Assembly (NCBI GenBank): GCA_017857825.1
Contig: JAFMCK010000005.1
Span: 1 to 32,803 of the forward strand
Length of the DNA stretch: 32,803 bases
Reading direction: 5' to 3'
Source: Rhodospirillales bacterium
GTDB taxonomy: Bacteria > Pseudomonadota > Alphaproteobacteria > Rhodospirillales > Casp-alpha2
Made by a program: the position numbers and the translations under genes. Positions 6,470-27,171 of this stretch are shown here, in pieces; positions within the stretch are counted from its first letter, which is position 1; every line of letters starts with the position of its first letter. Below the pieces are notes generated by a model. It saw only the letters and a list, made by a program, of their open reading frames with translations. It did no database searches and was not told the origin of the DNA.

Positions 6470-6518
6470 TAGACCTCACGTCTATGGGCTAAATAAATGC
6501 GCAGATTTGCGTTTGAAA

Positions 6519-7232: not shown

Positions 7233-7244
7233 CTTTGCACCCGA

Positions 7245-8135: not shown

Positions 8136-8374
8136 AGTTCTAACACCTAAAAAGTTCAATTTCTGAAGAAGATAGTCTGTCGTTTGTCCGAACATGTAAA
8201 TTGTTGGTACACATCGGGATGTTTGCATTCTGCCTCGGTTGATCTTGATGGCGTATGCACCAGATAACCGCGACACGCGCCCGCCACACTTTGATTGTCG
8301 CGGCGCAATTTGGTCAATTAATGTGCTTTCAACCAATGCACTGTCAACACATTCACGCCAGCGATGCGCGGGCT

Positions 8375-10102: not shown

Positions 10103-10151
10103 GTCAAAATCCCCAATATTGAATACGGCATATTTTCATTCGAATATGTGC

Positions 10152-10823
10152 TCATCTTGTTTCGTTATATAAGTTCGCGATGTCACATAACCCGTTCAAT
10201 ATCAGAACATTTTTCTTATCGAAGAACGCTTTCCAACCGTCAAATTCACTCATTTCGGTAAGGAATATAAAATCCATACCGAAGTGTTGGGCGGCCTCGT
10301 AATCGTATTTTGCATCGCCGACGAAAACCGGATTATTTGCCAGTATGCCTTTGTCTTTTAAGGCGTCGATGATCTCTACCTTATTTCTTGGGCTTCCGTT
10401 GATGCTTTGAAAAAGGTGGCTTAAACCCTTTTTCGAAAACACGTTATTCAATTCTATTTCATCGCCACCAGAGACGACGGCACATGTATGGCGCTTGTTC
10501 AATAAGGACAAGAATTCACGCAGGCACGGCGCTTCTTCACACGCCGGCAATGCATTGAAGACATACTCACCGTACTGAGCCAGCAGCGTTTCAGTTAACG
10601 CCTCGGGGTTTGGTGCGTTAAGAATTGTTTCGCTGAAATGCGCTAATTTTTTGTAACGTGAAATCCCCCCGTTGGAGACATGATACTCAACAAGCGACGT
10701 CATCGCTTCTGGTCCGTATGCGCGGCCGACTTCACGAAAGGCATTCGTCTTTATCTGATTGCTGTTCAATAGAACGCCGTCGCAATCGAACAGCCAGACG
10801 TCGTAGTCGCTGAGTGAGCGCAA
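10152..10823 (-). CDS. HAD-superfamily phosphatase
   Basis: DxDG motif LFDCDGVLLNS, motif II VVSGGD, motif IV FVGDAKYDYEAAQ. Confidence 0.87.
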   Translation of the reverse strand: MRSLSDYDVWLFDCDGVLLNSNQIKTNAFREVGRAYGPEAMTSLVEYHVSNGGISRYKKLAHFSETILNAPNPEALTETLLAQYGEYVFNALPACEEAPCLREFLSLLNKRHTCAVVSGGDEIELNNVFSKKGLSHLFQSINGSPRNKVEIIDALKDKGILANNPVFVGDAKYDYEAAQHFGMDFIFLTEMSEFDGWKAFFDKKNVLILNGLCDIANLYNETR

Positions 10824-10848
10824 AACTATATTTCTTTCATCAACATTT

Positions 10849-11568
10849 TTATTGAATAATCTGCCGGATCTTTTCTAAATCTTCCGGCGTATCGACGGCG
10901 TAAGATTGGCCTGAAAGTTCAATCATATGAACTTCAAAGCCGAGCTCCAAAAACCGAAGAATTTCTATGTCTTCAATATTTTCCAGGTGTGTTTTTTTGC
11001 TTTGATCGGCAAATGCCTGCAAAGCGGCACGTGGGAATGCGTAAATACAAATCTGCCGTTTTGCAGTCTGAAAAGACAGCGCCTTCGTTGTTGGGATTGC
11101 GGCGCGGCTCATATACAAGAGTCGGCCATCCGGCCGCGCGACCACCTTGGGAATGGATGGGTTTCGAAAACTTTCTTCGTCCTCAATCACGGCCATGCCG
11201 TTGATCACGCTTTCGGGATTCTTCTTTGCGGCTCGAATGATATTTGAAATATCTTCCGGATCGATAATTGGCTCATCACCTTGAACGTTGATATATATAT
11301 CGGCATCAATTTTTTCTGCAACACATGCCAACCGATCCGTTCCTGTTAAACAATCGGCGGGGGTCATAACGACTTTCGCTGAAAATTCTTCGCAATGCCG
11401 TTGAATTCTTTCGTCGTCTGTTGCGATGTACACGTCTTCGGGTGACGTGCTCATGATGCACCGCTCATAGGTGCGCTGGATCATGCTTTTGCCGCAAATA
11501 TCAATGAGCGGCTTTCCAGGAAGTCGACTGGATTGATAGCGGGCCGGAATAACCACGATGGTTTTCAT
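10849..11568 (-). CDS. kdsB: CMP-3-deoxy-manno-octulosonate cytidylyltransferase family (KdsB-like)
   Basis: VVIPARYQSSRLPGKPL, YIATDDERI, TGTDRLA, YINVQGDEPIIDP, YAVDTPEDLEKIR: hallmark KdsB motifs. Symbol denotes the family; substrate unproven. ATGA overlap with the upstream gene. Confidence 0.88.
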   Translation of the reverse strand: MKTIVVIPARYQSSRLPGKPLIDICGKSMIQRTYERCIMSTSPEDVYIATDDERIQRHCEEFSAKVVMTPADCLTGTDRLACVAEKIDADIYINVQGDEPIIDPEDISNIIRAAKKNPESVINGMAVIEDEESFRNPSIPKVVARPDGRLLYMSRAAIPTTKALSFQTAKRQICIYAFPRAALQAFADQSKKTHLENIEDIEILRFLELGFEVHMIELSGQSYAVDTPEDLEKIRQIIQ

Positions 11569-13211
11569 GAGGATTTGTGCGTTCCAATTACAAGCGGATT
11601 GAATAGCGTTTGCTGCGTGACGGAAAACGTCGTCGGCGTTAATGCGATGAGCGGCACGTCGTGAGATGAAGCGTTGTAGGCCTCAATAATATGGTTCATT
11701 TCGCTGCGTGCTCGATGGCTCAAATCGTCGTCGCCGTCAAAACCAACTAAGAAGATACGCTTCGCGCCGGCAGCGACGGCAATGCAAATGGCATAGGCAG
11801 CCCCCAAAGAGCTCGGGATTGTGCAATCGAAACTACGGGCTTCGAATTTACGGGAATCAATCTTCACACCAAAATCGAATATATTCATACCTTCAAGGAT
11901 GCCCCCATGAAGATTATAGGTCTGATGTAGCGGCAGAATGATCGGTTGTTTTATCTCTAGATAATGCGCCGATTCAATCAATATCCTTGCTGGGTTGCAG
12001 GCAACAAAGGCGTCTATTAGGTCATTTGGAAGCGGCGTTGACGTGTTTATAGACAGCACGGATATTTCATTATTCGAAATGAAATTTTTGATGTCGTCTG
12101 AATATTCTCGAACACTTTGACCTGCACCGATGATAAGGAAATCATCCGCCGTAAATAATTCTGAAGGTGACCTTTCTTGCAAGGTCGACGTTGATTCCGT
12201 GCCCATTACGGCACTTGATAAATTCTGTAGGCTAAACGTGTGGCTGTTCTCACCCTTTAGCCGTTTCAAAACGCTCATCACGACATTTGGATCGTATTCC
12301 ATATCCGAGTGCATGGTTTGCACATAGGTCGGATGAATATTTTCTTTGGCAGAAAAATAATAAAGTGGGTTAGGGCCCCAGCGATATTTATCTTTTAAAT
12401 CTTCAATGTCCGTCATGCATATCGAGATCAGACTTTCTGAATTGAAAGTATTGTTGAAGCGGCTTTCCAATTCGCCGATTAAGACTTCGGTCTTGGCATT
12501 TCCCGCACCGCGGCCCATGCCCTGAAGCGTTGCATCCAACCACGTAACCCCTTCAGCGGCGGCAGCCAAAGAATTTTCAAGCGCGCGTTCCATATTATTG
12601 TGGGTATGAATACCAAGTTCACCCGACCATTCTTTGCGTAATGTATGAATGCATCGAACCACATCTTCTTTGCCCATGTTGCCTAACGAGTCTGCAAAAT
12701 ACAGAACTTCAATCGCCTCGCAGCGCGCCATCTTTAACGCAACTTCCGTCAACTCATCATCGCTGGCCCGCGATACCTGCATCAGGTTTACGATGACCGT
12801 ATAACCTTTGGCTTTTAATAAATCGGTGATCTCGGGGATATGGCTTACTTCGTGGAGGTGCGCAGCAACGCGAACAATCTCGACCGGCGAGTTTATACGC
12901 TCGTCAAATAGCATGTCGAGCGCAGCGGCAATGCCGTTTTCATGCTTTATCAAATCGCTCGCATTGACCATCACGGCGATTTTCGAATGCGTTGGTAAAT
13001 CTAGGCTTTTGAGAAAAAGGTCCGTGGTAAAAAAATATGGCCCATAAAATCCCTCTTTTGCAAAAGTGCGCAAGCCAAGCTCAAGAACATCAACGCGTGA
13101 CTCATCTAACGCGCGAAGATATTTCTCGACCAACGGTCGCGAGAAATTCCAAGCATTATAGTAGCCACCGTCTCTGAGTGTGCAGTCGAGAAGTTTGATA
13201 TTCTTGGTCAT
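11565..13211 (-). CDS. DRE-TIM metallolyase (HMGL/4-hydroxy-2-oxovalerate aldolase-like) fused to a C-terminal DUF115/MptE-like Rossmann domain
   Basis: 548 aa; KLLDCTLRDGGYYNAW, LGIHTHNNMERALENSLAAAAEG, LQGMGRGAGNAKTEVLIG (metal and active-site motifs); C-terminal FLIIGAGQSVREYSDDI ... RIFLVGFDGDDD. Confidence 0.83.
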   Translation of the reverse strand: MTKNIKLLDCTLRDGGYYNAWNFSRPLVEKYLRALDESRVDVLELGLRTFAKEGFYGPYFFTTDLFLKSLDLPTHSKIAVMVNASDLIKHENGIAAALDMLFDERINSPVEIVRVAAHLHEVSHIPEITDLLKAKGYTVIVNLMQVSRASDDELTEVALKMARCEAIEVLYFADSLGNMGKEDVVRCIHTLRKEWSGELGIHTHNNMERALENSLAAAAEGVTWLDATLQGMGRGAGNAKTEVLIGELESRFNNTFNSESLISICMTDIEDLKDKYRWGPNPLYYFSAKENIHPTYVQTMHSDMEYDPNVVMSVLKRLKGENSHTFSLQNLSSAVMGTESTSTLQERSPSELFTADDFLIIGAGQSVREYSDDIKNFISNNEISVLSINTSTPLPNDLIDAFVACNPARILIESAHYLEIKQPIILPLHQTYNLHGGILEGMNIFDFGVKIDSRKFEARSFDCTIPSSLGAAYAICIAVAAGAKRIFLVGFDGDDDLSHRARSEMNHIIEAYNASSHDVPLIALTPTTFSVTQQTLFNPLVIGTHKSS

Positions 13212-13276
13212 TTAGATTGCCTTTTGTTTAAACCCTTGGCGTTTAACGGCCATGTTATCTTTTTGCCGAAATGTTT

Positions 13277-13441
13277 CTAAGCGTTCGTAAAATCACATAC
13301 GTGCAAACGCCCTAACGATCTTGGCGCAGCGGAGATGAATTTCAACCAAGCATACCACTGTTTGATCGACAAGTTGATGGCCCCAAGCGGTCTTGGAAGA
13401 CGCCTAAGCGGGGTGCGATAATCAAAAACGGTTTCGCCCAT
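13277..13441 (-). CDS. Possible small ORF (54 aa) in a long intergenic gap
   Basis: MGETVFDYRTPLRRLPRPLGAINLSIKQWYAWLKFISAAPRSLGRLHVCDFTNA; below the ORF-track length cut-off; no convincing Shine-Dalgarno. Confidence 0.2.
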   Translation of the reverse strand: MGETVFDYRTPLRRLPRPLGAINLSIKQWYAWLKFISAAPRSLGRLHVCDFTNA

Positions 13442-13462
13442 TTATGCTTAACATGTCGTCTA

Positions 13463-14143
13463 TTATTGTGATTCTGCTAAAATCGCATGGCACAGCCGCA
13501 ACTGAAATTCCGTATCGATATCAATTGACCGCTCTTCGGGCATCACGATGGCACGGGTTTCATCGTCCATGAAAACGCGATGTGCTAAAAACCATTCGGT
13601 CCGAAACGCAAAGATAGCCCCGTTCAACATCACCGTTGCGCTCGAAGCCGACGCAGTTTGATCCGTCGCCATGGGCGTCATCCTGCCGTCGTGCGTTACC
13701 TTATAGCACCACCATGGCTGATGGCTCACTGGGCCGACGGCAACACAGCTGTCGATCTTGGTATCGGCCAACAACGCCAGCGCGGTTGAAATATCGTCTG
13801 AGCAACGAAGCGGCGAGGTCGGTTGTAGCAACACACCAACGTCATAGGTTTCGCCGATGCTTGAAAAGTGCTGCAACGCGTGGGCGACAACATCAGCTGA
13901 GGTGGCGTCATCACTCGCCAAGTCGGGCGGTCGCATAAACGGGATCTCGGCGCCAAAACTTTTTGCGACGTCGGCGATCTCGCGATAATCGGTTGAGACA
14001 ATCACCCGGTCAATAATAGCGCATCCAAGTGCGGCTTCAATCGTCCACGCAATCAGCGGGCGCCCGCCGACGTCGCGGGTATTTTTACCCGGCACGCGCT
14101 TTGATCCACCACGGGCAGGAATAATAGCGAGGACGCGCATCAT
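13463..14143 (-). CDS. neuA: CMP-nonulosonate (acylneuraminate/legionaminate-type) cytidylyltransferase
   Basis: AIIPARGGSKRVPGKNTRDVGGRPLIAWTIEAAL, VIVSTDYREIADVA, LLQPTSPLR, SIDIDTEFQLRLCHAIL: NeuA/LegF/PseF family. Confidence 0.9.
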   Translation of the reverse strand: MMRVLAIIPARGGSKRVPGKNTRDVGGRPLIAWTIEAALGCAIIDRVIVSTDYREIADVAKSFGAEIPFMRPPDLASDDATSADVVAHALQHFSSIGETYDVGVLLQPTSPLRCSDDISTALALLADTKIDSCVAVGPVSHQPWWCYKVTHDGRMTPMATDQTASASSATVMLNGAIFAFRTEWFLAHRVFMDDETRAIVMPEERSIDIDTEFQLRLCHAILAESQ

Positions 14144-14174
14144 TGGTGATGTTTTGAAATGATGTTGAAGATTG

Positions 14175-15347
14175 CTATTGGCCTTGCAGTTTATCTACGA
14201 GCTGCGGGCTCGAAGGCAGGTTGATGGTGCGGCGGTATAAATCGCCTGCGTTTTTCATGCGCGCATGCGGCGCGGATTTATAAATTGGCAAATCATGCAA
14301 CGGATACCAAAGTGGCCGACAGCTCAACCCGGCATCATTCAGTGCCGCCAGGATATCGTCGCGATGTTCGGCAACATGCTCATCCAAGATAATTGCATTG
14401 AGCCAGTAGTTGCTTTGCCTGTCAGTGCGCTCGATTAAAAACCGGACGTTATCTATGTTGCCAAAGGCGGCGTCATAAAGCGCGGCCAACCGTCTTTTGC
14501 GTTCTAATTTCGAGGATAGTTGCTCCAATTGTCCGCATCCCAACGCCGCATTTAGGTTAGGCATTCTAAAGTTATAGCCGATGGCGTCGTGCTTATATTC
14601 CCATTTGTGCGGCGCTTTTGCCGTTGTGCTTAAATGGCGCATACGTTTTGCCAACTCTTGGTTCGCTGTCAAAACCGCGCCGCCCCCTCCCGTGGTGACG
14701 ATCTTATTGCCGTTAAAGCTTAAAATACCGACATCGGCGAACGTGCCCGCATGCCGCCCATGATAGGTTGAGCCAACGGCGCCCGCTGCGTCTTCAATCA
14801 TCGGGATATCCAACCTCTTGGCCAGTGCGGCAATTTCTTCGATGTCACCAATATGGCCAAAAACGTGGGTCACGACGATGGCGGCGATTCGGCGACCGGT
14901 TGTGGCATTGACCCAGGACGTATCTGTTTTTTTGCAAGTTTGTTCTATGTGGGCCTGCAACATTTTAGCATCAATACCGAATGACTGTGGTTCGCAATCA
15001 ACGAAATGAGGAATCGCACCCAAATGAGACGCCGCCGCGGCCGTTGCCACGAACGTCGTTGACGGCACAATAACTTCATCCCCGGCGCCTACACCAACGG
15101 CGCGATATGCCAACTGTAGGGCCGCCGTGCCGGATGCCGTTGCGATCGCAAATGGGTTGCCGGTCAAGGTGCATAAATCGTCTTCGATTCGATCAACGTA
15201 AGAACCGACCGATGACACCCAACCTGAGCGCACGCAGTCACTGGTGTAGTCTTCTTCGCGCCCGGTGAATTCGGGCTCGTGCAGTGCTGCTGCCGCGGGC
15301 ACAACCGAGCGTGCGGCAAAACAGATCTGGTCGATCAAGTCTTTCAT
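14175..15347 (-). CDS. legC: PLP-dependent DegT/DnrJ/EryC1 aminotransferase, LegC-like
   Basis: 390 aa; GWVSSVGSYVDRIED, ASGTAALQLAYRAVGVGAGDEVIVPSTTFVATAAA, IEDAAGAVGSTY, FNGNKIVTTGGGGAV (PLP lysine). Adjacent to NeuA/PtmE-like genes. Confidence 0.85.
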   Translation of the reverse strand: MKDLIDQICFAARSVVPAAAALHEPEFTGREEDYTSDCVRSGWVSSVGSYVDRIEDDLCTLTGNPFAIATASGTAALQLAYRAVGVGAGDEVIVPSTTFVATAAAASHLGAIPHFVDCEPQSFGIDAKMLQAHIEQTCKKTDTSWVNATTGRRIAAIVVTHVFGHIGDIEEIAALAKRLDIPMIEDAAGAVGSTYHGRHAGTFADVGILSFNGNKIVTTGGGGAVLTANQELAKRMRHLSTTAKAPHKWEYKHDAIGYNFRMPNLNAALGCGQLEQLSSKLERKRRLAALYDAAFGNIDNVRFLIERTDRQSNYWLNAIILDEHVAEHRDDILAALNDAGLSCRPLWYPLHDLPIYKSAPHARMKNAGDLYRRTINLPSSPQLVDKLQGQ

Positions 15348-15358
15348 CGGTGCAATTC

Positions 15359-16411
15359 CTATTGGCTCCGCTCAGTAAAATAGGACTGTGCTTCCTTGAA
15401 ATCTTCTTTCTGGCCAATATCAAGCCAGTACTCGCGTATTGGAAATGCAAGGCAGCGAATGCCATCATGCGACAGCATGTTGAAAAAATCAGTCATATAC
15501 AGGGGCGTATTTTCGGGCACCCGAGCAAAAAGATCACTGTTCAATACATAGATGCCCGCATTCACAAAGTACTCCTGAATAGGCTTTTCTTTGATTGCGA
15601 TGATTTCACTGTTTTCACACTGAACAACGCCATATGGAATTTGAAAGTCATAGCGCCGGATACACATGGTCGCCTGGGATTTCTGTTCCAAGTGATAAAG
15701 AAGCAAATTCGAAAAAGCGATGTCGGTCAGCACGTCGGCATTCATGACAATCACTGGCCGGTCCCCTCTCGGGGTGAAAAAACCCAGCGCACCTGCGGTG
15801 CCGAGCGCATTGTCTTCTTCGATATAATTAATGTTGGCACCAAAGCGCGCACCGTCGCCCAATGTGGCATACATCATTTCCTTTTTGTAATTCACCGCAA
15901 TCGTGATGTCGGTCAGTCCCTGCGAAACAAAATTTTCAATGATAATTTCAATCATTGGTTTTTCACCGATTGCAAGTAACGGCTTTGGCGTCGATTCTGT
16001 TAACGGCCACAGTCGCGAGCCCAATCCACCGGCCATCAAAATGACCTCTGCTGGAACCCTTCGTAGGTCTACATCGGCATGACTGACGTCCAAAACGTCG
16101 ATCACGCGACTGTCGTGATCAAGGATCGGAATATATTCCAGTTTTCGCTCACGGGCCTGGCGTATCAAACCTTTCTGCGCGGATCCGACGGTGCCCGTCA
16201 TCGGATTTTTGAACATTACGGTGCCGACGGGCTCGTCGAAACTTCGTCCATTAAGAATGGCGCGGCGAATATCGCCATCGGTGACGGTCCCGAGCAATCT
16301 GTCGTCTGCGTCGACGACGATACATATCTTTGCAACGTTTTTGTCGAGAACTTTGATGACGTCTGCGACTGTCGCTTCATCGCCTACAAAACAATTTTTA
16401 AATTGATCCAT
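15359..16411 (-). CDS. ptmE: Sugar-phosphate nucleotidyltransferase with N-terminal CBS pair (PtmE-like)
   Basis: CBS-like VVDADDRLLGTVTDGDIRRAIL, then EVILMAGGLGSRLWPLTESTPKPLLAIGEKPMIE; architecture of Campylobacter PtmE (GDP-GlcN route to legionaminate). Confidence 0.8.
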   Translation of the reverse strand: MDQFKNCFVGDEATVADVIKVLDKNVAKICIVVDADDRLLGTVTDGDIRRAILNGRSFDEPVGTVMFKNPMTGTVGSAQKGLIRQARERKLEYIPILDHDSRVIDVLDVSHADVDLRRVPAEVILMAGGLGSRLWPLTESTPKPLLAIGEKPMIEIIIENFVSQGLTDITIAVNYKKEMMYATLGDGARFGANINYIEEDNALGTAGALGFFTPRGDRPVIVMNADVLTDIAFSNLLLYHLEQKSQATMCIRRYDFQIPYGVVQCENSEIIAIKEKPIQEYFVNAGIYVLNSDLFARVPENTPLYMTDFFNMLSHDGIRCLAFPIREYWLDIGQKEDFKEAQSYFTERSQ

Positions 16412-17101
16412 TTACGATAGGCCATGTTCATTTTTTTGCGCTTGAATGACCCAATGCTTTAATTCCTTGGTGCCTTCCTCAAAGCTCCTGACCTGGTATT
16501 CTTTTGATCGCATTGAAAATCCGGCAAAAATTTCCGCGCAGTCTGCGTCGTTCGCGAAGTGATTTAAAACGGAATCATTATTTGGCCCGACAGAAATGCC
16601 CTTGAAAGTCCCAGGTGCTATTTCCTCACCAAAACCTTCGCCCCATGATCCTGTTGCCATCATGACCGAGAAAAACTGCCCACCGTCTTTGAGAAGTTCA
16701 CGGCAGTCCGCAACGATCCCGACCGTCGTTCTTAAAGGCATACATTGTAAGCAATTAACATCAATGACGGCGTCAAATGTATCACCGCCTACCAGCGCCC
16801 GAACGTCAAGTATATCGCCGACAAGAAGCTTCGTGTGATCCGATAGCCCTTCGTTATCGAGGCGGTCACGCGCTTGGCGTATGGCTGTTGCGGAGCCATC
16901 GATGCCCGTCACCGAAAATCCTTCACGCGCCATATACCAAATATTCGCGCCAGGCCCGCACCCCAGTTCTAAAATTCGGATGCTCTCGCGTGACTGAACC
17001 TTATAATAATTTCTCGCAACAAACCTGACTAAGCTCTCCGCTGGATAACGACCCCACTCATTTTCGGAAAATATCTCTTCCCAACGATGGCTCCATGACA
17101 T
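16412..17101 (-). CDS. Class I SAM-dependent methyltransferase
   Basis: 229 aa; IRILELGCGPGANIWYMAREGFSVTGIDGSATAI, FDAVIDVNCLQCM. Confidence 0.87.
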   Translation of the reverse strand: MSWSHRWEEIFSENEWGRYPAESLVRFVARNYYKVQSRESIRILELGCGPGANIWYMAREGFSVTGIDGSATAIRQARDRLDNEGLSDHTKLLVGDILDVRALVGGDTFDAVIDVNCLQCMPLRTTVGIVADCRELLKDGGQFFSVMMATGSWGEGFGEEIAPGTFKGISVGPNNDSVLNHFANDADCAEIFAGFSMRSKEYQVRSFEEGTKELKHWVIQAQKNEHGLS

Positions 17102-17157
17102 AGCAACATTTTCTCCGAATTTAAGGATACGTGATCAGCGGGTTAAATCAGTTTGGT

Positions 17158-18351
17158 TTATTTGAAATAGGCAACTGCACGTCGGTTCCTTAACCAGCCA
17201 GCCTGTTCATACAATTCGTACTGTTCCAAAACATCCTCAACCGCCGTTGGCGCAAGGCCAGCGGCTCGCCAGAGATGTCTTAGTTTGTCGATTAGCGGTC
17301 GAGAATGGATATAGAAATGATGAAGTCGCCTATTCTTGTCTATTAACGGTCGAATAAATTTACGAAAAATACTACGTGTTCTCGCAGCAGGTACAGCCGA
17401 TCCGGCACTTTTAGTAATATCTTGAATATCAAATATGGGGAGCTGTGGCTGATCAAGCTTATCTGCAGCTTTGGAAAACTCTATGATGAATTTTATATAA
17501 TGAGGCACATCTGCGGGCAAGTTGGTCTGCGGTGTCTTCTTTAATCTCGCAAAGCAATCCATCGCAATTTCTGTCTGGTTCATAATAATCGCATAGAACG
17601 CTAATTTTTGGAGGCGCGCGAATATGGCTGGCTTGTCTTGCCCGCTATTTTTTGTTGCTTCGGGCTTTTTAAGAAATAGCGCGTTCGTGACGATATCAAG
17701 ATTAGTTGAGCGGAGGCCTGTTGGTACTGATTGGGCACCAAACTTCATAAAGCCATCGAAACAGCAGAAGAAGAAGCCCAAACTTTCTAAGTAAGATTTT
17801 ACCTCAGAAAATGTTTTTTGTCCTTCATACAGTGGGTGCATTTCAGTTTCGGCAATGACGCATAGCGTTTCTTCGCGGAGACATTTTTCTGCGCCTTTCA
17901 ATACCTCCCAAGTGGCACCTTGAGCATCTATGGTGAGACAATGAGGCGGTCGCGCGAGTGCATCGCTAAAGCATATTTGATCTAAGGAACGAAATTCAGT
18001 CACTATTTCATGGTCGACTGACATAACGTTATCAAGTTTCGCAAGATATTTATATCTAGATATATAGTAAAAATTTTTGAATTCTTGCGATAATTGAAAA
18101 ATAGAACTCAGGTAAGGTTCGACCATAATATTAAATTTATCAGTATTGTTTTTATTGCTGATGCAAAAAGGGTAAACCGTTGCATATTTTCCAGCTTGAT
18201 CCAACGAACTGCGCGCTTCATTAATGCAGTCCGTATCAGGGTCATAATAGACGTAATCTATGTCATCATTAAATAACCTGGGTAGATGGATCGAGCCAGA
18301 GCCTTCTCTGGCACCAATATGATGATGGGAAAGGCGGTTACTGCTCATCAT
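17158..18351 (-). CDS. FkbM-like methyltransferase family protein
   Basis: LTIDAQGATWEVLKGAEKCL and CVIAETEMHPLYEGQKTFSEVKSYLESLGF are FkbM hallmarks. Start reassigned to ATG at 18351 (MMSSNRLSHHHIGAREG), overlapping the neuB stop (TAATG) with GGAGG just upstream. Confidence 0.78.
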   Translation of the reverse strand: MMSSNRLSHHHIGAREGSGSIHLPRLFNDDIDYVYYDPDTDCINEARSSLDQAGKYATVYPFCISNKNNTDKFNIMVEPYLSSIFQLSQEFKNFYYISRYKYLAKLDNVMSVDHEIVTEFRSLDQICFSDALARPPHCLTIDAQGATWEVLKGAEKCLREETLCVIAETEMHPLYEGQKTFSEVKSYLESLGFFFCCFDGFMKFGAQSVPTGLRSTNLDIVTNALFLKKPEATKNSGQDKPAIFARLQKLAFYAIIMNQTEIAMDCFARLKKTPQTNLPADVPHYIKFIIEFSKAADKLDQPQLPIFDIQDITKSAGSAVPAARTRSIFRKFIRPLIDKNRRLHHFYIHSRPLIDKLRHLWRAAGLAPTAVEDVLEQYELYEQAGWLRNRRAVAYFK

Positions 18352-19412
18352 TATGTGCCTCCTGTTTTGAGACTGATATCTATATGCGGATTTGGAAGAT
18401 CTAGTTTTTCGCCGGCAGAGAAATGTCGCCACGCAACCGATCCGACGACCCGATCAATGTCACGTGCCGGGATGCCGTCATTTGGCCGCAGCGCAACAAC
18501 ATCGTCATCGGCTATCGTCTCACCAAGCGCAATGTCACGCGCCGCAACCAAAGACCGACGCACAGACTTCACCACGTCTTTCTCTATCGGCAGCAGTCGC
18601 TTTTCCGCGGACCCCAGCATCGTCTCTGCGGTCCGGATGGAAGCGACGAGTCGAAACAGGGTTTCCGGGTCGGCAGACGCCATATGATCCGGTCCGGGGA
18701 GTGATCGATCGAGCGTATAATGCTTTTCAATGATTTTTGCGCCAAGCCCCACGGCGACCACTGCGGCAATCGTGCCGTTTGAATGATCTGACAAACCAAT
18801 GGGCAGCGAAAACTCTTCATGCAACGTTGTCATCGCCTTAATGTTCATATCTCTGTCAGGTGTTGGATACGCTGTTGTGCAATGTAGTAGTGTAATATCC
18901 AACGGATCATCGCTTATTTTCGCGCGGGCTTTGCGGAGTGTTTCTATCCCTAAGTTAACATCACTCAGATTACACATGCCTGTTGAAAGAATAATCGGAA
19001 GTCCATACGAACCGGCTAAGCGTACAAGCGGCACGTTATCAACGTCACCGGATGGAATTTTAATTCGTTGGATGTTTAGTTCTTCCACCAGGAACTTCAG
19101 GCTGGGAAGATCGAAGCCGGTTGAAAGAAATTCAATGCTGCGCGCGACGCAATGCCGTGCGAGGTCGACAAAAACCGATTGTTCTAACTCAAAGGTTTTT
19201 CCGAGTTCGTACATATCGTTGACACCCGACGTGCCAGCTTTTTGGTATTCAACCAAAGCGTTGTCTCGGCGCGTGACCAATTCGCGGTCCCACGTTTGGA
19301 ACTTCACCGCATCGGCCCCTGCATCCGCCGCAATATCGATCAAACGATGGGCCATGTCAGGGCTGCCGTTATGATTTACACCAGCTTCAGCGATGATATA
19401 GACACCACTCAT
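18351..19412 (-). CDS. neuB: N-acetylneuraminate/legionaminate synthase family (NeuB/LegI-like)
   Basis: IIAEAGVNHNGSPDMAHRLIDIAADAGADAVKFQTW, LSTGMCNLSDV, LLHCTTAYPTP, GLSDHSNG, EKHYTLDRSLPGPDHMAS, C-terminal SAF-like domain. Likely start MSGVYII at 19412. Confidence 0.95.
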   Translation of the reverse strand: MSGVYIIAEAGVNHNGSPDMAHRLIDIAADAGADAVKFQTWDRELVTRRDNALVEYQKAGTSGVNDMYELGKTFELEQSVFVDLARHCVARSIEFLSTGFDLPSLKFLVEELNIQRIKIPSGDVDNVPLVRLAGSYGLPIILSTGMCNLSDVNLGIETLRKARAKISDDPLDITLLHCTTAYPTPDRDMNIKAMTTLHEEFSLPIGLSDHSNGTIAAVVAVGLGAKIIEKHYTLDRSLPGPDHMASADPETLFRLVASIRTAETMLGSAEKRLLPIEKDVVKSVRRSLVAARDIALGETIADDDVVALRPNDGIPARDIDRVVGSVAWRHFSAGEKLDLPNPHIDISLKTGGT

Positions 19413-19413
19413 T

Positions 19414-20820
19414 TTACATACCTTTTGTCCTTGGCGCACATTGTTCTGCCTGCTTTGACAATGTCAAGATCTCGGCGTTAATGGCTGCCGTTGCGCTTTG
19501 CGACCCAGCCTTCATGGGGTCGTGGATTTTTTCGATTGGCGGAAAGGCGTCGAGGATCGCGGCGGCTATCTTGGGGGCTATTTCGCTGCGCACGGGTACG
19601 CGAGGGAAAAAGTATCCCGTTGTCTGTCCGCGTTTCAAAAATACAATCGCACCCACGACGCCATCAATCAAAATGATTTGGCTAAGAATATTGGGTGACG
19701 TCCGGCATCGATCAAACACCATTTGGTTTCGCGACCAGTTGGGTGCGTGCCCTGTTTGAGATTTGCGCGCGGCAAATTTCTCGCAAAGTGTTTGATGAAT
19801 ATATGCATAGTCGCCGGATGTTACTTTACGCTGCCCGACCTCATTGGCTGCGTCAGGGGCATCACTTTTGATATTGTGCGCCGGTTCTGTGGCCGCTGTT
19901 CGATAGCTTAAGAAAATGCCATCACGTCCGCCACCGATCGACTTATACGCTGTTGGGTTATGGATAATGCCGCCGACAAAGTAATTCAGCCGTAACGGTG
20001 AATATCGCTTTTTGAAATCCAACAAATGATCGTCGGGCCGTGTGGATCGGCCGCCGCCAAGGTGCATCCATTTAAAGCCTGCGTTTGCGTAATCGCGGAT
20101 CGCGATATCATGCAAAAGATACGAGGCATAGGTCTCTCGCCCACGCTGGGTTGATGCTGATAAATGCGTATGCGCAAAAATGCCGCCCGCGATACACAGC
20201 ATAACGCCAACCGGTTCGCCGTTGTCTTCTGCGACCCAGCTTCTGGAATAATCTTGCGCTAGGATATTTTTAAAATACTGCGCATCGAAATAATATCTCG
20301 CCGCTGCGTTGTTATGCTCCATACCGTCTTCATAGACGCGCCTAAATATCTCACTGTCATCTGCGCCTAAGCGCCGAACCTGCAACGCGGCGCCGGCAAG
20401 CCGAATGCGCTTTTGCGTGATCCTGTCATATGGCGGTACATCTTCTTCACGCCGTGTCGTCAAATCGACAAGGATTGTTGTCCGATTGAAACTGAAAAAA
20501 TCGAGATGTGGTCGCAATGCAGCGATATCGATAAACGGGTGAAACCGGATGAATTCGGCAACAACACCATCGTCGTAACATTTCTTTCGCCACGCGCGCA
20601 TGCCAACGTCTAAATCATCCGCCGTGCGGCTTAACGGACCGCCATAGCCCCACGGTGTCTCCGCATCAAACAGCCCTGTCGACTCTATCTCGCGGACCGT
20701 GGCCGAATGACAAAACCCATCGATATTGATTTCAGAAATATGTCCGTGGAATTGATGTATATTCAGAAACTCACGTTCATAATAAATATCATTCAAAATA
20801 TCGTCGTAATGATTTTTCAT
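19414..20820 (-). CDS. GNAT/FemAB-like acyltransferase
   Basis: 468 aa; WGYGGPLS, FIRFHPF, RSWVAEDNGEPVGVMLCIAGG, HTHLSAS, GFKWMHLGGGRS...LLDFKKRYSP typical of FemAB/GNAT_6-type proteins. Function of the C-terminal ~130 aa unclear. Confidence 0.65.
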   Translation of the reverse strand: MKNHYDDILNDIYYEREFLNIHQFHGHISEINIDGFCHSATVREIESTGLFDAETPWGYGGPLSRTADDLDVGMRAWRKKCYDDGVVAEFIRFHPFIDIAALRPHLDFFSFNRTTILVDLTTRREEDVPPYDRITQKRIRLAGAALQVRRLGADDSEIFRRVYEDGMEHNNAAARYYFDAQYFKNILAQDYSRSWVAEDNGEPVGVMLCIAGGIFAHTHLSASTQRGRETYASYLLHDIAIRDYANAGFKWMHLGGGRSTRPDDHLLDFKKRYSPLRLNYFVGGIIHNPTAYKSIGGGRDGIFLSYRTAATEPAHNIKSDAPDAANEVGQRKVTSGDYAYIHQTLCEKFAARKSQTGHAPNWSRNQMVFDRCRTSPNILSQIILIDGVVGAIVFLKRGQTTGYFFPRVPVRSEIAPKIAAAILDAFPPIEKIHDPMKAGSQSATAAINAEILTLSKQAEQCAPRTKGM

Positions 20821-20836
20821 TAATTAAAACCGCACC

Positions 20837-21985
20837 TTAAGGATATTCAGTTTCTAAGAATGCTTTTATGTGTTCGACGATGACGCGGGACGGCAACGTG
20901 GCTTCAGAATATCTTGAGAGTGAATCGGTCTCAGCATTCCGCTTCAATGAGAGTGCTTTGTGAAGCGCGTTGGAAATGTCATCAATCCCCCCCGAACAAT
21001 CAATAATGGTCGGTGTCCGAATGCGGCCTTCCTGGCGTGATCCGATATTAACCGTTGGCGTGCCAAGGGCAGGTGCTTCTGTCATGCCGCTTGATGAATT
21101 CCCAACGACAACATCAGCCGCAGCGACCAGCGAAAGATAGCGTCGAAATCCAAGGCTTTGAACTTCCGCGGCCGTGGTCTTGTTCTGTGCAACAAAACGA
21201 CGAATTTTTGCGCTGACCTGTAAGCCGCCCGGATCTGCATTCACACCGGTAAATACGATATTTGAATCCGCAAATTGGCCAAGCACCGATAGCAACGCGT
21301 CGATACTGCTTTCTGTTTCCGCAGGATATGACGTCACCGGGTGGTAGGTTACGGCGAACAATCTTTGTTGCGGCGAAAGGCCCAATTCAGCGAGTATCTT
21401 AGTCGCATTTTCGGGAATGTGTACGCACGAGTTTTCGATTCCAAGGTGGCCGACATTGAACACGTGTGATCCGTCTAAGGCGCGCTTTTTAACATTTTCT
21501 TGGTATTCTTTGTCAGCGACGAAATGAATTCGCGACATATCGGTGACGAGGGCGCGAAAAATATTATCCAGCGCGCCAAGGGTCGTCTCACCGCCGCCGA
21601 TATGGGCAATAGGTATGCTCAAAAACGTGGCTGCAATTGCTGCTGGAACGATCTCGTAACGGTCCCCAAGTAAAATAAGCAGATGCGGCTTTTGTTGCGC
21701 AAAGGCGTCAAAGAATAATCCATGTGCTGTGCCCATTGCGTGAACGATGGCAGAGGCAGACTGGTCGCCAGAATCAAGCGGTATCGTCGCCGAGGGAGCA
21801 AACCCTTCTGTGACGATTTCCGAAAGCGTCGCCCCGTGTTCTTGCGATAGATGGGATCCCGTGACAATTAGCGACAACGCCACGTCCGGGTCATCATCAA
21901 GATGGCGCAGCAGGCGGCTCAGCAAGCCAAATTCGGCTCGGCTTCCGGTTACTGCAGCAACTCTAAAAGGTGTTAACGTTGTCAT
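20837..21985 (-). CDS. neuC: UDP-N-acetylglucosamine/N,N'-diacetylbacillosamine 2-epimerase, hydrolysing (NeuC/LegG-like)
   Basis: VAAVTGSRAEFGLLSRLLRHL, LLGDRYEIVPAAIAATFLSIPIAHIGGGETTLGALDNIFR, VTYHPVT, VVGNSSSGMTEAPALGTPTVNIGSRQEGR. Internal ATG at 21985 (MTTLTPFRVAAVTGSR) is the probable start. Confidence 0.93.
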   Translation of the reverse strand: MTTLTPFRVAAVTGSRAEFGLLSRLLRHLDDDPDVALSLIVTGSHLSQEHGATLSEIVTEGFAPSATIPLDSGDQSASAIVHAMGTAHGLFFDAFAQQKPHLLILLGDRYEIVPAAIAATFLSIPIAHIGGGETTLGALDNIFRALVTDMSRIHFVADKEYQENVKKRALDGSHVFNVGHLGIENSCVHIPENATKILAELGLSPQQRLFAVTYHPVTSYPAETESSIDALLSVLGQFADSNIVFTGVNADPGGLQVSAKIRRFVAQNKTTAAEVQSLGFRRYLSLVAAADVVVGNSSSGMTEAPALGTPTVNIGSRQEGRIRTPTIIDCSGGIDDISNALHKALSLKRNAETDSLSRYSEATLPSRVIVEHIKAFLETEYP

Positions 21986-21990
21986 CAGCT

Positions 21991-23852
21991 TTACCCTGCA
22001 TCCAAAACACGAAACAGGCATTCTGTTGCTGATCGATTTTTTGACAGAGCACAAAGTTGGTCGATGGAGTCGTCTGCGTTCAAAAGCGGGTTCTCGTCAG
22101 CCAATGTCTGCAGATCGGTTGCGGATAGGATGACAGGCATTTGCGAGAACAGCCAACAATCAATACTTGATGGTTCAGGCACGAACCCAACATAGGGGCA
22201 TCCAAGCGCGATGGTCTGAATAAGTGCACCGGAACTTACAGGCCCATTGGCAACGTCCGCCCATAACGCATGTGCTTGTAAACCGTCTGTTCGCGGAATG
22301 ACCGTCGCGTCTAATTTCATGCGCGAGAACAGTACCTGGAAAAATTCTGAATTATCAATTGCAGGATGTCCCTTAATGCGAACGACTTTACCTTGCTCAT
22401 TTAATACTCTGACGAGGTCGATAAGGTATTGAACGGTGTTGGCGCGAAGTGCGGCGGGGTCTGCAATTCCCGAATACACGGTCATCTTTTGGTGTCATTA
22501 AAATGCACCGGCGTGCGCGGTCGCAAAGATCACCGCGGTATCAATACATCAACCGCTGGATATTCAGCCGCGACGCTCAAATGCGCCAATGCTTTGTTGG
22601 GATAGGCCCGGCCAAGGTATTCACTCCATGCCAGATTCCGGTCGACAAGCGGGGTTTGGCCTCGGTCGCCGCATCGTGCGCCGTCACGCACAGGTGTTAC
22701 GAAGATGCCGTTCAATAGCTCTTCAATAGGAATACCTACTATTATTGCGATCTCTGCAACGACACGTGAGCGGGCGGGACGAACGTCAGACACAACAACC
22801 CGCGCTAATTTGATACGATTAAATAATTTTCGGGTTCGTCTTACAAACCCTGCCATGGCGTGAAGCCGCTCCGATTGGAACAAGTATGTTTCAACGAAGT
22901 GCCGGCGGGCTTGTTCGCGTGCTGTCAGCGGCGGCAGCCGATTCCATGCGTCTCGATAGCGGGCAATGATTTTGCGGACGTCATGGATATCTGATGGGTT
23001 TATTTTTTCTTGCGGCATGCTGACCAATGCACTGCCGTTCATCAGGCACTGGAATATATACTTTGGCGTTTTTCGTGTCGCTTGGCCGATAAAAACGGGT
23101 GAGAAGGATCGCGGACTTTTTGAAAGTATAATTCCCTCCGACGCCAAATCACTCAGCAAGAAGAAAACGCTTCGCTTATTTCTGCAAAAGACAAAACGTA
23201 GTTTGCAGATAAGTTCGACACATCCAACAAAAACATCACGTAGTCTATATATAGGGCGGATCTGCATAGTGCTTGAACCCGCAAAAACAGCAAAATCTTG
23301 ATGAAGCGAATCAGAACGCAAGGTTTCTGTGTTATGACGTGAAAACGCCACGTTGTTTTTCGTGCAAATGTCTTGGACGAGCACTTCAATGTTGGTGATG
23401 TCCAACATATCGCAGTACGCACGTACACCACGCAGTTCTATGTATTTAGGTGTGAAGGTTTGGCAGATGGCGTCCAAGGCGGCATGAATTCGACGAAACA
23501 TATAATCGGCTGTGGCAATTTGTGAATCGAATTGCCGACCTAAAGAAACACCCGCGAATTGTGAGGCATCTGTTTCGTCGAGATACACCCAACTGGCGGC
23601 GTCGATAAACACGCTGCCTGCAGCGCCGTATTGATCGCTTGTCCAATCTTCTAAAAAGGCATCCGTTAATACAGCCTCGCCGCCAAGATTTCGCCACGCC
23701 CAACTCACGGACAATTCTGTGGTCACAACCAAGACATCAGCGTCGTCTGGTGACAGCGTGTCAAGGTGCTTTTCCGTACTGACAAGAACGATCCGTTGAT
23801 ATGACGTTTTTGACGGGGCGGACCCAAATTTATCGGAAAATTTTAAGATCAA
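21991..23852 (-). pseudogene. GT-like gene apparently split into two ORFs (22530-23852, 440 aa; 21991-22485, 164 aa)
   Basis: First ORF ends SVAAEYPAVDVLIPR*. The other frame then reads CIDTAVIFATAHAGAF, hits TAA TGA, and resumes MTVYSGIADPAALRANTVQYLIDLVRVLNEQGKVVRIKGHPA... which looks like the C-terminal half of a GT-B-like enzyme. A genuine two-gene split is not excluded. Confidence 0.5.
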
Positions 23853-23904
23853 GGCTATCCGGCGTTACAGAATGAGGGTTCGTGAGAAAATCAATTAACA
23901 AGGG

Positions 23905-24810
23905 CTACATTTCATGGGCTGATTTTGTTCCATAGCGGCGCCTATAGGCATCGCCCGGTCCACAATGACGGGATGATTCCAATGGAAAATCTTCACCGAC
24001 GGACAACAGCCATTTCTCCGGCGCTGACAGGTCGGCGATAATGTCTGATGAAATGTATCGTTGCTGATTAAGTAGTTGAGGAATACTTCGAAGGCGATAT
24101 TCGGTAAAGAATGTTCGGCGGCGGCGACCGCTCAAATTCTCTGACCCCCCATGCCAAACTTGTGAGTTTAACAGAACCCGTGATCCGGCTTTTGCTTCAA
24201 CCAGAACTTCATCTTTATGCTTTGCCGCTATATCGATGTGTTCTTGCGGATAATCCAAAATGCGATGGCTTTTTGGGATGATACGCAACGGCGCATTTTC
24301 AAGGGTCATATCATCGATCACAAAAAAGCAGAACATGCATTCAAAGGGGGCGGCTTCGTCCATTCGCGGCACCCAGTCGATGTGAATTTGTTGATTTCCG
24401 CCGCCTTTTAGTGGCTCGCGCATATCGACGGCGCTGACACGGAAGTCTGGGCCCAGAAGATGCTGCGCACCAAGCAGGACTTCCGGCATCGAGATAAGCG
24501 CCCGGAAACACCGATGCTTATTAATAAGATTGCCAAGACGAGCAGACCCGGGGTCGGCTAATTTTCCGGGTTCGCGCTCAATCACGAACTCCATCCCTTC
24601 CCAGCCGCCTTTGACACCTTCTTGGCGGCTAAGCTCATCTGTCACGTCACGTAGTTCTTCAAGCGACGTGCCGTGCTTGGACAAATGTTCAAGATCTGGC
24701 GGCAACACCACGTAGCCTAAATCATCGAACGTGCTGCGCTGCGCGTCCGTCAAGGCGGACGGCGAAATCTGATAGTATTGTAAAACGTCGTCGATATTAT
24801 TCATCGTCAT
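23905..24810 (-). CDS. Phytanoyl-CoA dioxygenase (PhyH) family Fe(II)/2-oxoglutarate oxygenase
   Basis: LGYVVLPPD, QQIHIDWVP (HxD), VWHGGSENLSGRRRRTFFTEYR (distal His and Arg). Confidence 0.82.
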   Translation of the reverse strand: MTMNNIDDVLQYYQISPSALTDAQRSTFDDLGYVVLPPDLEHLSKHGTSLEELRDVTDELSRQEGVKGGWEGMEFVIEREPGKLADPGSARLGNLINKHRCFRALISMPEVLLGAQHLLGPDFRVSAVDMREPLKGGGNQQIHIDWVPRMDEAAPFECMFCFFVIDDMTLENAPLRIIPKSHRILDYPQEHIDIAAKHKDEVLVEAKAGSRVLLNSQVWHGGSENLSGRRRRTFFTEYRLRSIPQLLNQQRYISSDIIADLSAPEKWLLSVGEDFPLESSRHCGPGDAYRRRYGTKSAHEM

Positions 24811-24873
24811 TCTACGGCCCTATCGCATCATTTGAGTTTTATGCACGGGGGATCGGCCTTGGCGAGCTATGGT

Positions 24874-25869
24874 CTATTTTAAAACCCAGTTGCCAAATAA
24901 GCTCTCAGCGCGATTAACGTCCTTAAAAAATCCCTGATTCAAGGCAGCCATCAATTCATCAATGCCGTCATCAATGCTGAATGCGGGCTCAAATTCCAAC
25001 TCGGAACGGACCTTGGCAAAGTTCACGCGGTAATTTCGCGGATCACCGCCGTGTTCCTCATAGGTGATGTGCGCGCCTGGAATGCGCGCCGCAATGGCTT
25101 CAACCAAAGACCGTTTAGTCGCGTTGTTGGTGTCACCGCCTGCATTAAAGACGGTGCCATGCACGATAGACTTTGGCGCGGCCAAGGTTTTCAAAAGCAG
25201 CCGTCCAAAATCACGGACGTGGCAATACGGCCGCCAGGTATCGGCATCAAATACGATGAGTTCATTGCCAATCGCCAGCTCTCGAGTGAACTCGCTGACC
25301 GTCAGATCAAACCGCATGCGCGGAGATAACCCGAACGCTGTTGCAAAGCGCAAAATCGTGGGCACATAGGGCAGCGTCGCGGCGGCTTCCATAAGGTAAA
25401 GCTCTGCCGCAACCTTTGCTTTTGCATAAAGCGATAACGGGTTCAGCGGCCAATTTTCGTCCGCAACAGCCCCTTCAGGGATGAGCCCATAGTTGGAACA
25501 CGTCGAGACAAAAATCACGCGATCAACAGTGCTTTCTGCCAGAACATCAAAAACCGTGCGGTAACCATCATCGTTGATCGCTTTTGATGCGTCGGGATAT
25601 GTTTTGGTGATTGGATCGCCGACCAGTCCGGCCAGCAAGATAACGTCATCAACGTCCGATAGCGCAGCGCGCACGGTATCTGCATCACACAAATCTCCAC
25701 GCATAAACTCGTAGCCCGGCTGGCCTAAGAAGCCGAATACAGTCCGATCATGTCCATAAACAAAAGAATCCAAGCATCTCACGGAGAAACCAGCCTCAAG
25801 GAATAAAGGTGTTACGGCTGTTCCCACGTAACCACCGCCACCAATTATTAGTACCTTGCGTTCGCTCAT
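24874..25869 (-). CDS. NAD-dependent epimerase/dehydratase (extended SDR)
   Basis: LIIGGGGYVGTAVTPLFLEAGF, VSTCSNYG, YAKAK, LRFATAFGLSPRMRFDL. Confidence 0.88.
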   Translation of the reverse strand: MSERKVLIIGGGGYVGTAVTPLFLEAGFSVRCLDSFVYGHDRTVFGFLGQPGYEFMRGDLCDADTVRAALSDVDDVILLAGLVGDPITKTYPDASKAINDDGYRTVFDVLAESTVDRVIFVSTCSNYGLIPEGAVADENWPLNPLSLYAKAKVAAELYLMEAAATLPYVPTILRFATAFGLSPRMRFDLTVSEFTRELAIGNELIVFDADTWRPYCHVRDFGRLLLKTLAAPKSIVHGTVFNAGGDTNNATKRSLVEAIAARIPGAHITYEEHGGDPRNYRVNFAKVRSELEFEPAFSIDDGIDELMAALNQGFFKDVNRAESLFGNWVLK

Positions 25870-25913
25870 CTTTTTATCAATCTCCGATATTCAATCGTGG
25901 GTTTTGATTTAGT

Positions 25914-25925
25914 CATGCTACCGCA
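25914..25925 (-). promoter_or_regulatory. ops-like element (TGCGGTAGCATG), candidate recruitment site for the adjacent RfaH-like protein
   Basis: Minus strand GCGGTAGCATG matches the enterobacterial ops core GCGGTAGCGTG at 10 of 11 positions; sits in the gap between the RfaH-like gene and the downstream operon. Confidence 0.5.
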
Positions 25926-25950
25926 CTCCGGGTGAAATCGCCCAAAGTGC
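25923..25950 (-). promoter_or_regulatory. RNA stem-loop directly upstream of and abutting the ops-like element
   Basis: Minus-strand GCACU-UU-GGG-CGAUUUCA-CCC-GG-AGUGC: 10-bp stem with two U·G wobbles that pair only in the minus-strand RNA. Confidence 0.55.
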
Positions 25951-25981: not shown

Positions 25982-26482
25982 TCAGATCGCGAACACGGCG
26001 TCTCCTGAAACAGTGGCCCGGACTTTCCGTCCGAGCAGGTCCAAAAGCACAACGACGCGGTTGCGCTCGTCTGTGCCTTCGAACAAAGCTTCTAGCTCAC
26101 CAAGCGGGCCCCGCTTTACCTGCACGGTTTCGCCTTGTTTAAAGCCGGTGGCGGTGCGGGTACGGATAAGGCCGCTGTCGTCCTGGCGGGCGCGAATTTC
26201 ATTGATCACAGGATCCGGGACGGCCGCCGGCTTTTCGCCAAAGCGGATCACATCGCGAATACCGACGGTGCCGCGAATGGCGCGCCAAGGGGCGCGATCC
26301 GGATCAATTGCGATAAACAAATAGCCTGGAAACAACGGTTTTGGGACCCAATCCACGCGCCGCGCATGGGCGCGGCGTTTCAGGTGTTTTGGCAGCAAAA
26401 CTTCAAACCCTTGGCGGATCAAATGGCCAGCGGCCACGTCTTCTGCGTTGATGTGGGTATGCGCGGCGCACCAATACGTCAT
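25982..26482 (-). CDS. NusG-paralogue transcription antiterminator (RfaH/UpxY-like)
   Basis: 166 aa; WCAAHTHINAEDVAAGHLIRQGFEVLLPKHLKRR...KPLFPGYLFIAID...RAIRGTVGIRDVIRFG, C-terminal KOW-like FKQGETVQVKRGPLGELEALFE. ATGA overlap with the regulator gene. Confidence 0.88.
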   Translation of the reverse strand: MTYWCAAHTHINAEDVAAGHLIRQGFEVLLPKHLKRRAHARRVDWVPKPLFPGYLFIAIDPDRAPWRAIRGTVGIRDVIRFGEKPAAVPDPVINEIRARQDDSGLIRTRTATGFKQGETVQVKRGPLGELEALFEGTDERNRVVVLLDLLGRKVRATVSGDAVFAI

Positions 26483-27171
26483 GTTGCACCTTCGTCGTCG
26501 ATGTCCGGTGCATGCCGCCGCATGCGATCGATGCCCAGAAATCCCGGTGCCATGATGCGGTCTTTCGGTAAGAAAACGCTGACAGCATTATGTGCTTCGA
26601 GGGGGCTATGTAGACGACAGATGATCGCCGCATCGAAGTTCGCGATGTCGTCAATGTGTTGTATGCGCTCTATCCCGGATAAATTGTCTAGTTTCGCATT
26701 TAACCCGCAAAAGATGGCCATTTGTTTTAGGCCTTCTGGCGCGGACATGGCGAAGATTTCTGCAAGATCGCCGTCGCCGACCAAAACAATGCGACGCCAA
26801 TCGTTGTTGAGGCACTGCTCATATATCTTTGCAGCCTCATTCCGCGTGGCGCGAAATAGACCCAGTGATTGCGTAAGATACTCCGCCGTCAATCGGGTCT
26901 TCTCTGTGAACCCGTGCGGCGTAAGGTAATATGCAAAGCGGTTGGCGGGGGCTTGGCGGACCTTGATCAGGCCTTTTTTGATGCAGCGTTTCAGATATGT
27001 ATTGGTTAAGCCAAGCGCGATCGATAGTTCGCTGGCGAGCGAGCGCTGCGATAGACTTTCATTGTCATGGACGGCATTCAGCAGGCCGAGCATGATACGC
27101 TCTTCACCATCAAATTTGTCCGACTGCAGATCTATTTTTGCCATGCGTCGTTCCGAGTGCCTCAACCCCAA
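26479..27171 (-). CDS. Winged-helix (MarR-like) transcriptional regulator with C-terminal Rossmann-like domain
   Basis: N-term SQRSLASELSIALGLTNTYLKRCIKKGLIKVRQAPANRFAYYLTPHGFTEK (wHTH); C-term RRIVLVGDGDLAEIFAMSA...FDAAIICRL. Likely start MAKIDL near 27144. Confidence 0.75.
   Translation of the reverse strand: MGLRHSERRMAKIDLQSDKFDGEERIMLGLLNAVHDNESLSQRSLASELSIALGLTNTYLKRCIKKGLIKVRQAPANRFAYYLTPHGFTEKTRLTAEYLTQSLGLFRATRNEAAKIYEQCLNNDWRRIVLVGDGDLAEIFAMSAPEGLKQMAIFCGLNAKLDNLSGIERIQHIDDIANFDAAIICRLHSPLEAHNAVSVFLPKDRIMAPGFLGIDRMRRHAPDIDDEGAT

Follow-up and report, generated by a model that had tools for sequence, protein, structure and literature searches.

A conserved hairpin-ops element beside RfaH-like genes of Alphaproteobacteria as a probable JUMPstart-type recruitment site

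Results

The DNA analysed here, hereafter the window, is a stretch of 32,803 nucleotides from a Rhodospirillales genome, and all the features described below are read on its minus strand. The gene of an RfaH-like specialised NusG paralog of 166 amino acids (25982..26482; matches to TIGR01955, PF02357 and the PDB) is overlapped at its start by a gene for a winged-helix protein resembling a MarR-type EPS-associated regulator (26479..27171; TIGR04176, E=8.8e-17, below cut-off), which is its probable co-transcribed partner. A gap of 112 bp lies between the stop of the RfaH-like gene (25982) and the next ATG (25869), that of an NAD-dependent sugar epimerase/dehydratase (24874..25869; PF01370, E=2.4e-33), with which a run of polysaccharide genes of about 22 kb, all in one direction, begins. 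Judging from orientation and spacing only, these co-directional genes (3086..25869) would be co-transcribed as the putative target operon, for a surface polysaccharide of the nonulosonic-acid type; NeuC-like (20837-22054) and NeuB-like (18351-19439) genes belong to it, and nucleotidyltransferases, an aminotransferase and an ABC exporter are among its other putative members.

The gap holds a hairpin-ops element (25950-25914) that reads GCACTTTGGGCGATTTCACCCGGAGTGCGGTAGCATG, in which the 5' 28 nt make up a stem-loop and the last 11 nt an ops-like core, and of which the epimerase gene is the first gene 3'. In minus-strand RNA the 5' arm GCACUUUGGG (25941..25950) pairs with the 3' arm CCCGGAGUGC (25923..25932), itself part of the conserved stretch TTCACCCGGAGTGC (25923-25936), in a stem of 10 bp including two U.G pairs; the loop is CGAUUUCA, and a UNCG loop is absent. 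The foot of the stem and the ops-like core have a GC in common. This core, GCGGTAGCATG (25914..25924), contains GCGGTAGC (25917-25924), is identical to GCGGTAGCGTG at 10 of 11 positions, and ends in a TG (25914-25915) equivalent to the pause dinucleotide of the E. coli ops (numbering of PMC5995543). The sequence, coordinates, strand, stem, gap length and ops match are exactly those claimed in an earlier, sequence-only reading of this DNA. The same reading held that the hairpin forms in minus-strand RNA only, which holds for the window copy owing to the two U.G pairs of its stem, but not for several relatives, in which the stem is perfect and would form in the complement too (antisense hits). 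Folding of 66 nt of the minus-strand RNA gave -20.6 kcal/mol, and 4 of 200 dinucleotide shuffles folded equally well.

The exact sequence GCGGTAGCNTG is found once in the window and twice in the 3.3-Mb genome, and the second genomic GCGGTAGCTTG was rejected as another site, being antisense within a coding region and without a hairpin. Sites within two mismatches of GCGGTAGCNTG number 28 in the window, about the shuffle expectation, and the 11-mer match taken singly is weak evidence; the ops match rises above chance because it is kept among relatives, as follows. From 60 relatives searched, 30 rfaH loci were taken, the window's own among them, and after orienting them the 27 related loci with sufficient downstream sequence were counted. 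The sequence-only reading had proposed a comparison of orthologous loci, and GCGGTAGC with a common upstream stretch is indeed kept 60-114 nt past the end of the rfaH match in 26 of these 27, the locus without the element being L026. Across the alignment of the 26 rows GCGGTAGC does not vary, and the TCACCC upstream of it hardly does.

A 23-nt weight matrix derived from the 26 copies, with a threshold of 14, was then applied to rfaH loci obtained by searching named genomes separately, a set that partially overlaps the related one. The element lies on the same strand 38-216 nt downstream of rfaH in 48 of 78 loci and elsewhere in the fetched DNA in 5/78; within the fetched flanks of the remaining 25/78, about one third, no element was found (L098, L100, L111, L112, L118 and some 20 more). 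Reversed sequences, used as control, reached a best score of 12.4 against the threshold of 14. Hosts include Rhodospirillales, Magnetovibrio, Bradyrhizobium, Nitrobacter, Rhodopseudomonas, Afipia and Paramagnetospirillum. An HTH homologue is located directly upstream of rfaH in 71 of the 78 named-genome loci, and in all 48 of those with a downstream element.

The GCGGTAGC motif is followed by NTG in 59 of 72 copies. In the window an ORF of 16 codons (25867-25916) starts at the ATG of the ops core; its TGA overlaps the epimerase ATG, and no sign of conservation of this ORF was found in relatives; a role of the ops-core ATG as start codon was discarded, since across the 72 copies the NTG frame is no longer than the other frames.

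To judge from sequence comparison, the hairpin is conserved by covariation, with the two arms changing in step. Pairing of each 5' flank with the 3' arm of the same copy has a mean energy of -16.2 kcal/mol over the 72 distinct copies, compared with -12.5 (sd 0.29; minimum -13.5 over 1000 permutations) when arms are permuted among copies and -8.7 when the flank is shuffled, and the own arm is preferred in 68 of the 72. A hand-checked, gap-light alignment of 11 copies contains 92% standard pair cells, versus 34-53% when the arms are slid, and 6 compensatory (double-sided) changes, versus 1.7 in shuffled alignments. The larger, model-fitted alignment displays 42 double-sided changes versus 14.7, a figure biased towards structure and including several antisense rows; all these pairing and covariation values take the copies as unrelated, phylogeny being ignored. 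Copies differ freely in the length of the loop and the sequence of the stem, and a few (L149, L005) combine a weak hairpin with an intact ops core.

Across the class, 318 genomes were scanned both for TTCACCCGGANTGCGGTAGCNTG with up to 3 mismatches and for RfaH-like proteins (E<=1e-14): the motif occurs in 56, RfaH in 79 and both in 44 (Fisher p=1.7e-21, with genomes counted as independent and their relatedness ignored). When at most one mismatch is allowed, the motif is left in 15 genomes, and RfaH is present in every one of them. Of 62 sites, 23 share the strand of RfaH and follow it at 48-229 nt, and the others lie kilobases from it, in divergent orientation, on a different contig or in a genome in which RfaH was undetected; therefore, the element both adjoins and stands apart from its gene. 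A Pfam search of the first gene after ten sites, mostly away from rfaH, gave matches for eight (NeuB, a DegT aminotransferase, two ABC exporters, an ABC-2 permease, a Gfo/Idh oxidoreductase, a hexapeptide transferase and a sugar dehydratase) and none for the other two. Sugar-polymer genes of such kinds are the company expected of RfaH, and away from rfaH the element usually precedes them. In two loci, L055 and L059, its upstream neighbour is a MarR-EPS-like HTH gene, and rfaH does not intervene; the RfaH of the first genome is on another contig, and in the second none was detected.

JUMPstart/ops elements (RF01707) are found in the leaders of enterobacterial capsule, O-antigen, hly and tra operons, and ops sites have been characterised in enteric relatives of E. 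coli. The element described here resembles JUMPstart in that the 3' foot of an RNA hairpin abuts GCGGTAGC-NTG, in preceding polysaccharide operons and in its link to RfaH. It differs in having its own stem sequence, with TTCACCCGGANTGC as 3' arm, in the base before GCGGTAGC, a fixed G in enterobacterial ops and T or G in the alphaproteobacterial copies, and in lying directly after its own rfaH, whereas JUMPstart is found in leaders of unlinked operons. The window stretch and 14 loci were searched with the Rfam model RF01707, which gave no match at E<=1, although a conserved stem-loop in the gammaproteobacterial JUMPstart is described in Rfam's source paper (PMC2864571). Conversely, a covariance model built from 11 alphaproteobacterial copies and applied to 377 genomes of the phylum returned 28 matches. 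One of them, in L199, is a canonical JUMPstart of the enterobacterial type (CAGTGCACTGGTAGCTGTTAAGCCAGGGGCGGTAGCGTG), with an E of about 0.01, and others are additional hairpin-ops sites, in part located beside RfaH; some weak matches without GGTAGC nearby (for example L186-L188, L191, L193 and L197) look like chance. The distance between stem foot and pause nucleotide is about 8-10 nt in the alphaproteobacterial and the enterobacterial group alike. Hence the element probably works like JUMPstart, and is not a member of RF01707 as curated.

About half of 30 gammaproteobacterial RfaH loci carry GCGGTAGC downstream of rfaH, most at 93-540 nt, and most of the sites examined have a hairpin. This rules out a novelty restricted to Alphaproteobacteria, and the cis layout is therefore broader than that class. 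The gammaproteobacterial loci with the motif at 93-540 nt, mostly preceded by a hairpin, are L203, L204, L207, L208, L210, L212, L213, L217, L220, L221, L223, L225 and L228, and all of their rfaH genes except that of L228 score above the RfaH cut-off.

The best NCBIfam match of the window paralog is RfaH itself (TIGR01955, E=4.6e-33), at 114.5 bits versus a cut-off of 144.5; consequently, we call it RfaH-like and do not file it as RfaH. Its PDB match is RfaH (2oug, 3e-14), and its identity to E. coli RfaH is about 26-33%. The two proteins share a NusG-type N-terminal domain, and the predicted domain of the window protein superposes on that of RfaH in the ops-paused complex (8pen) with a TM score of 0.88 and an rmsd of 2.1. 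In E. coli numbering, the window protein has H10, V16, H20, R23, Q24, K48 and V73, and thus keeps H20, R23 and Q24 of the ops contacts and not K10, R16 and R73. Likewise, in the alphaproteobacterial RfaHs H/N20 (56/56), R23 (44/56) and Q24 (53/56) prevail and K10 and R73 are mostly missing. In E. coli RfaH, K10 and R73 contact ops, and alanine mutants are strongly defective. A second characteristic of the alphaproteobacterial proteins is an arginine-rich arm at positions 37-42 (R37, R/S38, H39, A40, R41, R/K42; A40 in 56/56 and H39 in 55/56), a pattern, R-[RS]-H-A-R-[RK] (RRRHARR), that is absent in 24 sampled gammaproteobacterial RfaHs; by its sequence it is a candidate nucleic-acid arm. In the window copy of this stretch (26336-26377; about residues 36-49 of the RfaH-like protein), the second position is occupied by A.

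E48 is absent, position 48 being K in the window protein and A, R or V in relatives; the available part of a 2026 preprint reports the alanine mutant of E48 in E. coli RfaH as constitutively active (PMC13015549). AlphaFold2 confidently models the C-terminal domain of the window protein as a beta-barrel (pLDDT about 76-83), whereas the same method at equal alignment depth renders that of a gammaproteobacterial RfaH at low confidence and partly helical. Accordingly, neither the E48-R138 autoinhibition nor the helical hairpin of the E. coli C-terminal domain is predicted for the window protein, and these cis-encoded RfaHs are probably non-autoinhibited. A further difference from E. coli RfaH is that the window gene adjoins its target and its HTH partner.

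Discussion

We consider it highly probable that the element is an alphaproteobacterial JUMPstart/ops recruitment site for the RfaH-like factor encoded immediately upstream, because its sequence, its position and conservation, the covarying arms and the joint occurrence with RfaH and with polysaccharide genes all point that way. The pause or recruitment site put forward in the sequence-only reading is thus well supported at the level of sequence, by its conservation, by the tie to RfaH in co-occurrence, position and strand, by the covarying hairpin and by the nature of the bases kept in the ops core. In the E. coli ops, C3 to G8 form a DNA loop in which G5 and T6 are read by K10, H20, R23 and R73, the TG at 11-12 gives the pause, and the central bases are dispensable for pausing and needed for RfaH, C3, G4, G5, T6, A7 and G8 being required for its recruitment (PMC5995543); GCGGTAGC includes all six. 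Against this reading stand the lack of R73 and K10 in most of the alphaproteobacterial sequences, that of the window included, the 25 of 78 loci without the element, the score of the protein below the RfaH cut-off and the absence of an Rfam JUMPstart match.

By analogy with the biochemistry of E. coli RfaH, from which we infer pausing, binding, anti-Rho action and ribosome recruitment, RNA polymerase would pass the HTH and rfaH genes and arrive at the element, where it would pause on the T of NTG while the hairpin formed behind it; about 8-10 nt would separate the foot of the stem from the 3' end of the RNA. The exposed non-template GCGGTAGC would then form a small ops loop to be recognised by the N-terminal domain of RfaH, which, once loaded, would exclude NusG and Rho, recruit ribosomes and carry polymerase through the polysaccharide operon of about 22 kb. 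The hairpin could serve to stabilise the pause, to block backtracking or to bind the arginine-rich arm. A more elaborate scheme, to which we give limited credence, is a two-signal recruitment of non-autoinhibited, cis-encoded RfaHs, in which the ops loop would be read by H20, R23 and Q24 and the hairpin or the upstream duplex by RRRHARR.

The loss of R73 and K10 alongside a near-invariant arm that gammaproteobacterial RfaHs lack, together with the covariation that keeps the hairpin, could also be read in the manner of LoaP, a NusG paralog that binds and needs an RNA hairpin (PMC12691694), with the nascent hairpin as the main recruiter through the arm and the ops-like DNA mainly as a pause site. 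We hold this to be rather unlikely, given that GCGGTAGC is conserved more strictly than the hairpin, including bases that pausing in E. coli does not need, that loop length and stem sequence are free to change, and that the ops core is intact where the hairpin is weak (L149, L005). The system of Bacillus, LoaP and the dfn hairpin, is similar in combining a NusG paralog with a leader RNA hairpin of a long operon; it differs in that the hairpin is of UNCG type and LoaP antagonises NusA at intrinsic terminators, whereas the hairpin here is fused to an ops core (PMC12691694). Moreover, the window protein scores 47.6 bits in the LoaP family NF033641, versus a cut-off of 125. If RfaH instead loaded in cis without recognising ops, the element would be a hairpin-stabilised leader pause coupling transcription to translation, an idea in keeping with the absence of E48, with the beta-barrel predicted for the window protein next to a low-confidence, part-helical control, and with the ops-independent cis action proposed for such RfaHs in the available part of the 2026 preprint (PMC13015549). 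Nevertheless, the invariant central ops bases are those that E. coli needs for RfaH and not for pausing, which argues against a pure pause site, and elements remote from rfaH or on a different contig, most of them in genomes that possess RfaH, argue against purely cis loading, which does not explain them; we therefore judge this reading distinctly improbable.

A GC-rich hairpin within an intergenic gap might equally suggest an intrinsic terminator or attenuator limiting read-through past rfaH. However, a terminator scan of the site revealed neither a U-tract nor an alternative terminator, and the stem is followed by GGTAGC and then usually NTG, which leaves this explanation a very slim chance. 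The autoregulatory attenuator also envisaged in the sequence-only reading is accordingly abandoned, all the more so as the element lies downstream of rfaH and can therefore act only on the genes after it. As for a chance match without function, the abundance of near-matches in the window speaks for it, but the class-wide evidence of conservation, placement, strand and covariation makes it exceedingly improbable.

According to the available part of Wang et al. 2020 (PMC7593976), 18% of RfaHs belong to Alphaproteobacteria, an HTH-linked cluster is noted, the detailed mode of recruitment is known for E. coli RfaH only, and how paralogs encoded inside their target operons are recruited is unknown. 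The clusters CL4, with rfaH-like genes beside HTH regulators, and CL7, with such genes inside exopolysaccharide operons, are described there in terms that recall the window, and so are, in the corresponding part of the 2026 preprint, the monomorphic beta-RfaHs, which have lost some ops-contact residues and are proposed, as non-autoinhibited proteins, to act in cis without ops (PMC13015549). An ops site for alphaproteobacterial cis-encoded RfaHs is not reported in the available parts of these two sources, and no report of alphaproteobacterial ops sites was found in the main texts of the open-access papers searched. What is apparently new in the element is its own sequence, its cis-encoded partner and an RfaH that seems not to switch, the rest being JUMPstart-like.

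The finding that many cis-encoded and probably non-autoinhibited RfaHs of one class have a conserved hairpin-ops right after their gene bears on how such proteins are recruited, offers a concrete candidate recruitment site, open to testing, for Rhodospirillales, Bradyrhizobium, Nitrobacter and their relatives, and provides a covarying model with which candidate target operons of RfaH can be found where the JUMPstart model of Rfam misses them. It suggests that ops recognition predates the fold switch or is independent of it. The two-signal scheme, if true, would likewise make ops recognition older than, or independent of, fold-switching, and would bridge the DNA-reading mode of RfaH and the RNA-reading mode of LoaP. 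In Bradyrhizobium retamae (L114), two tandem candidate elements are located 72 and 312 nt downstream of rfaH, the second with GCTGTAGC in place of GCGGTAGC.
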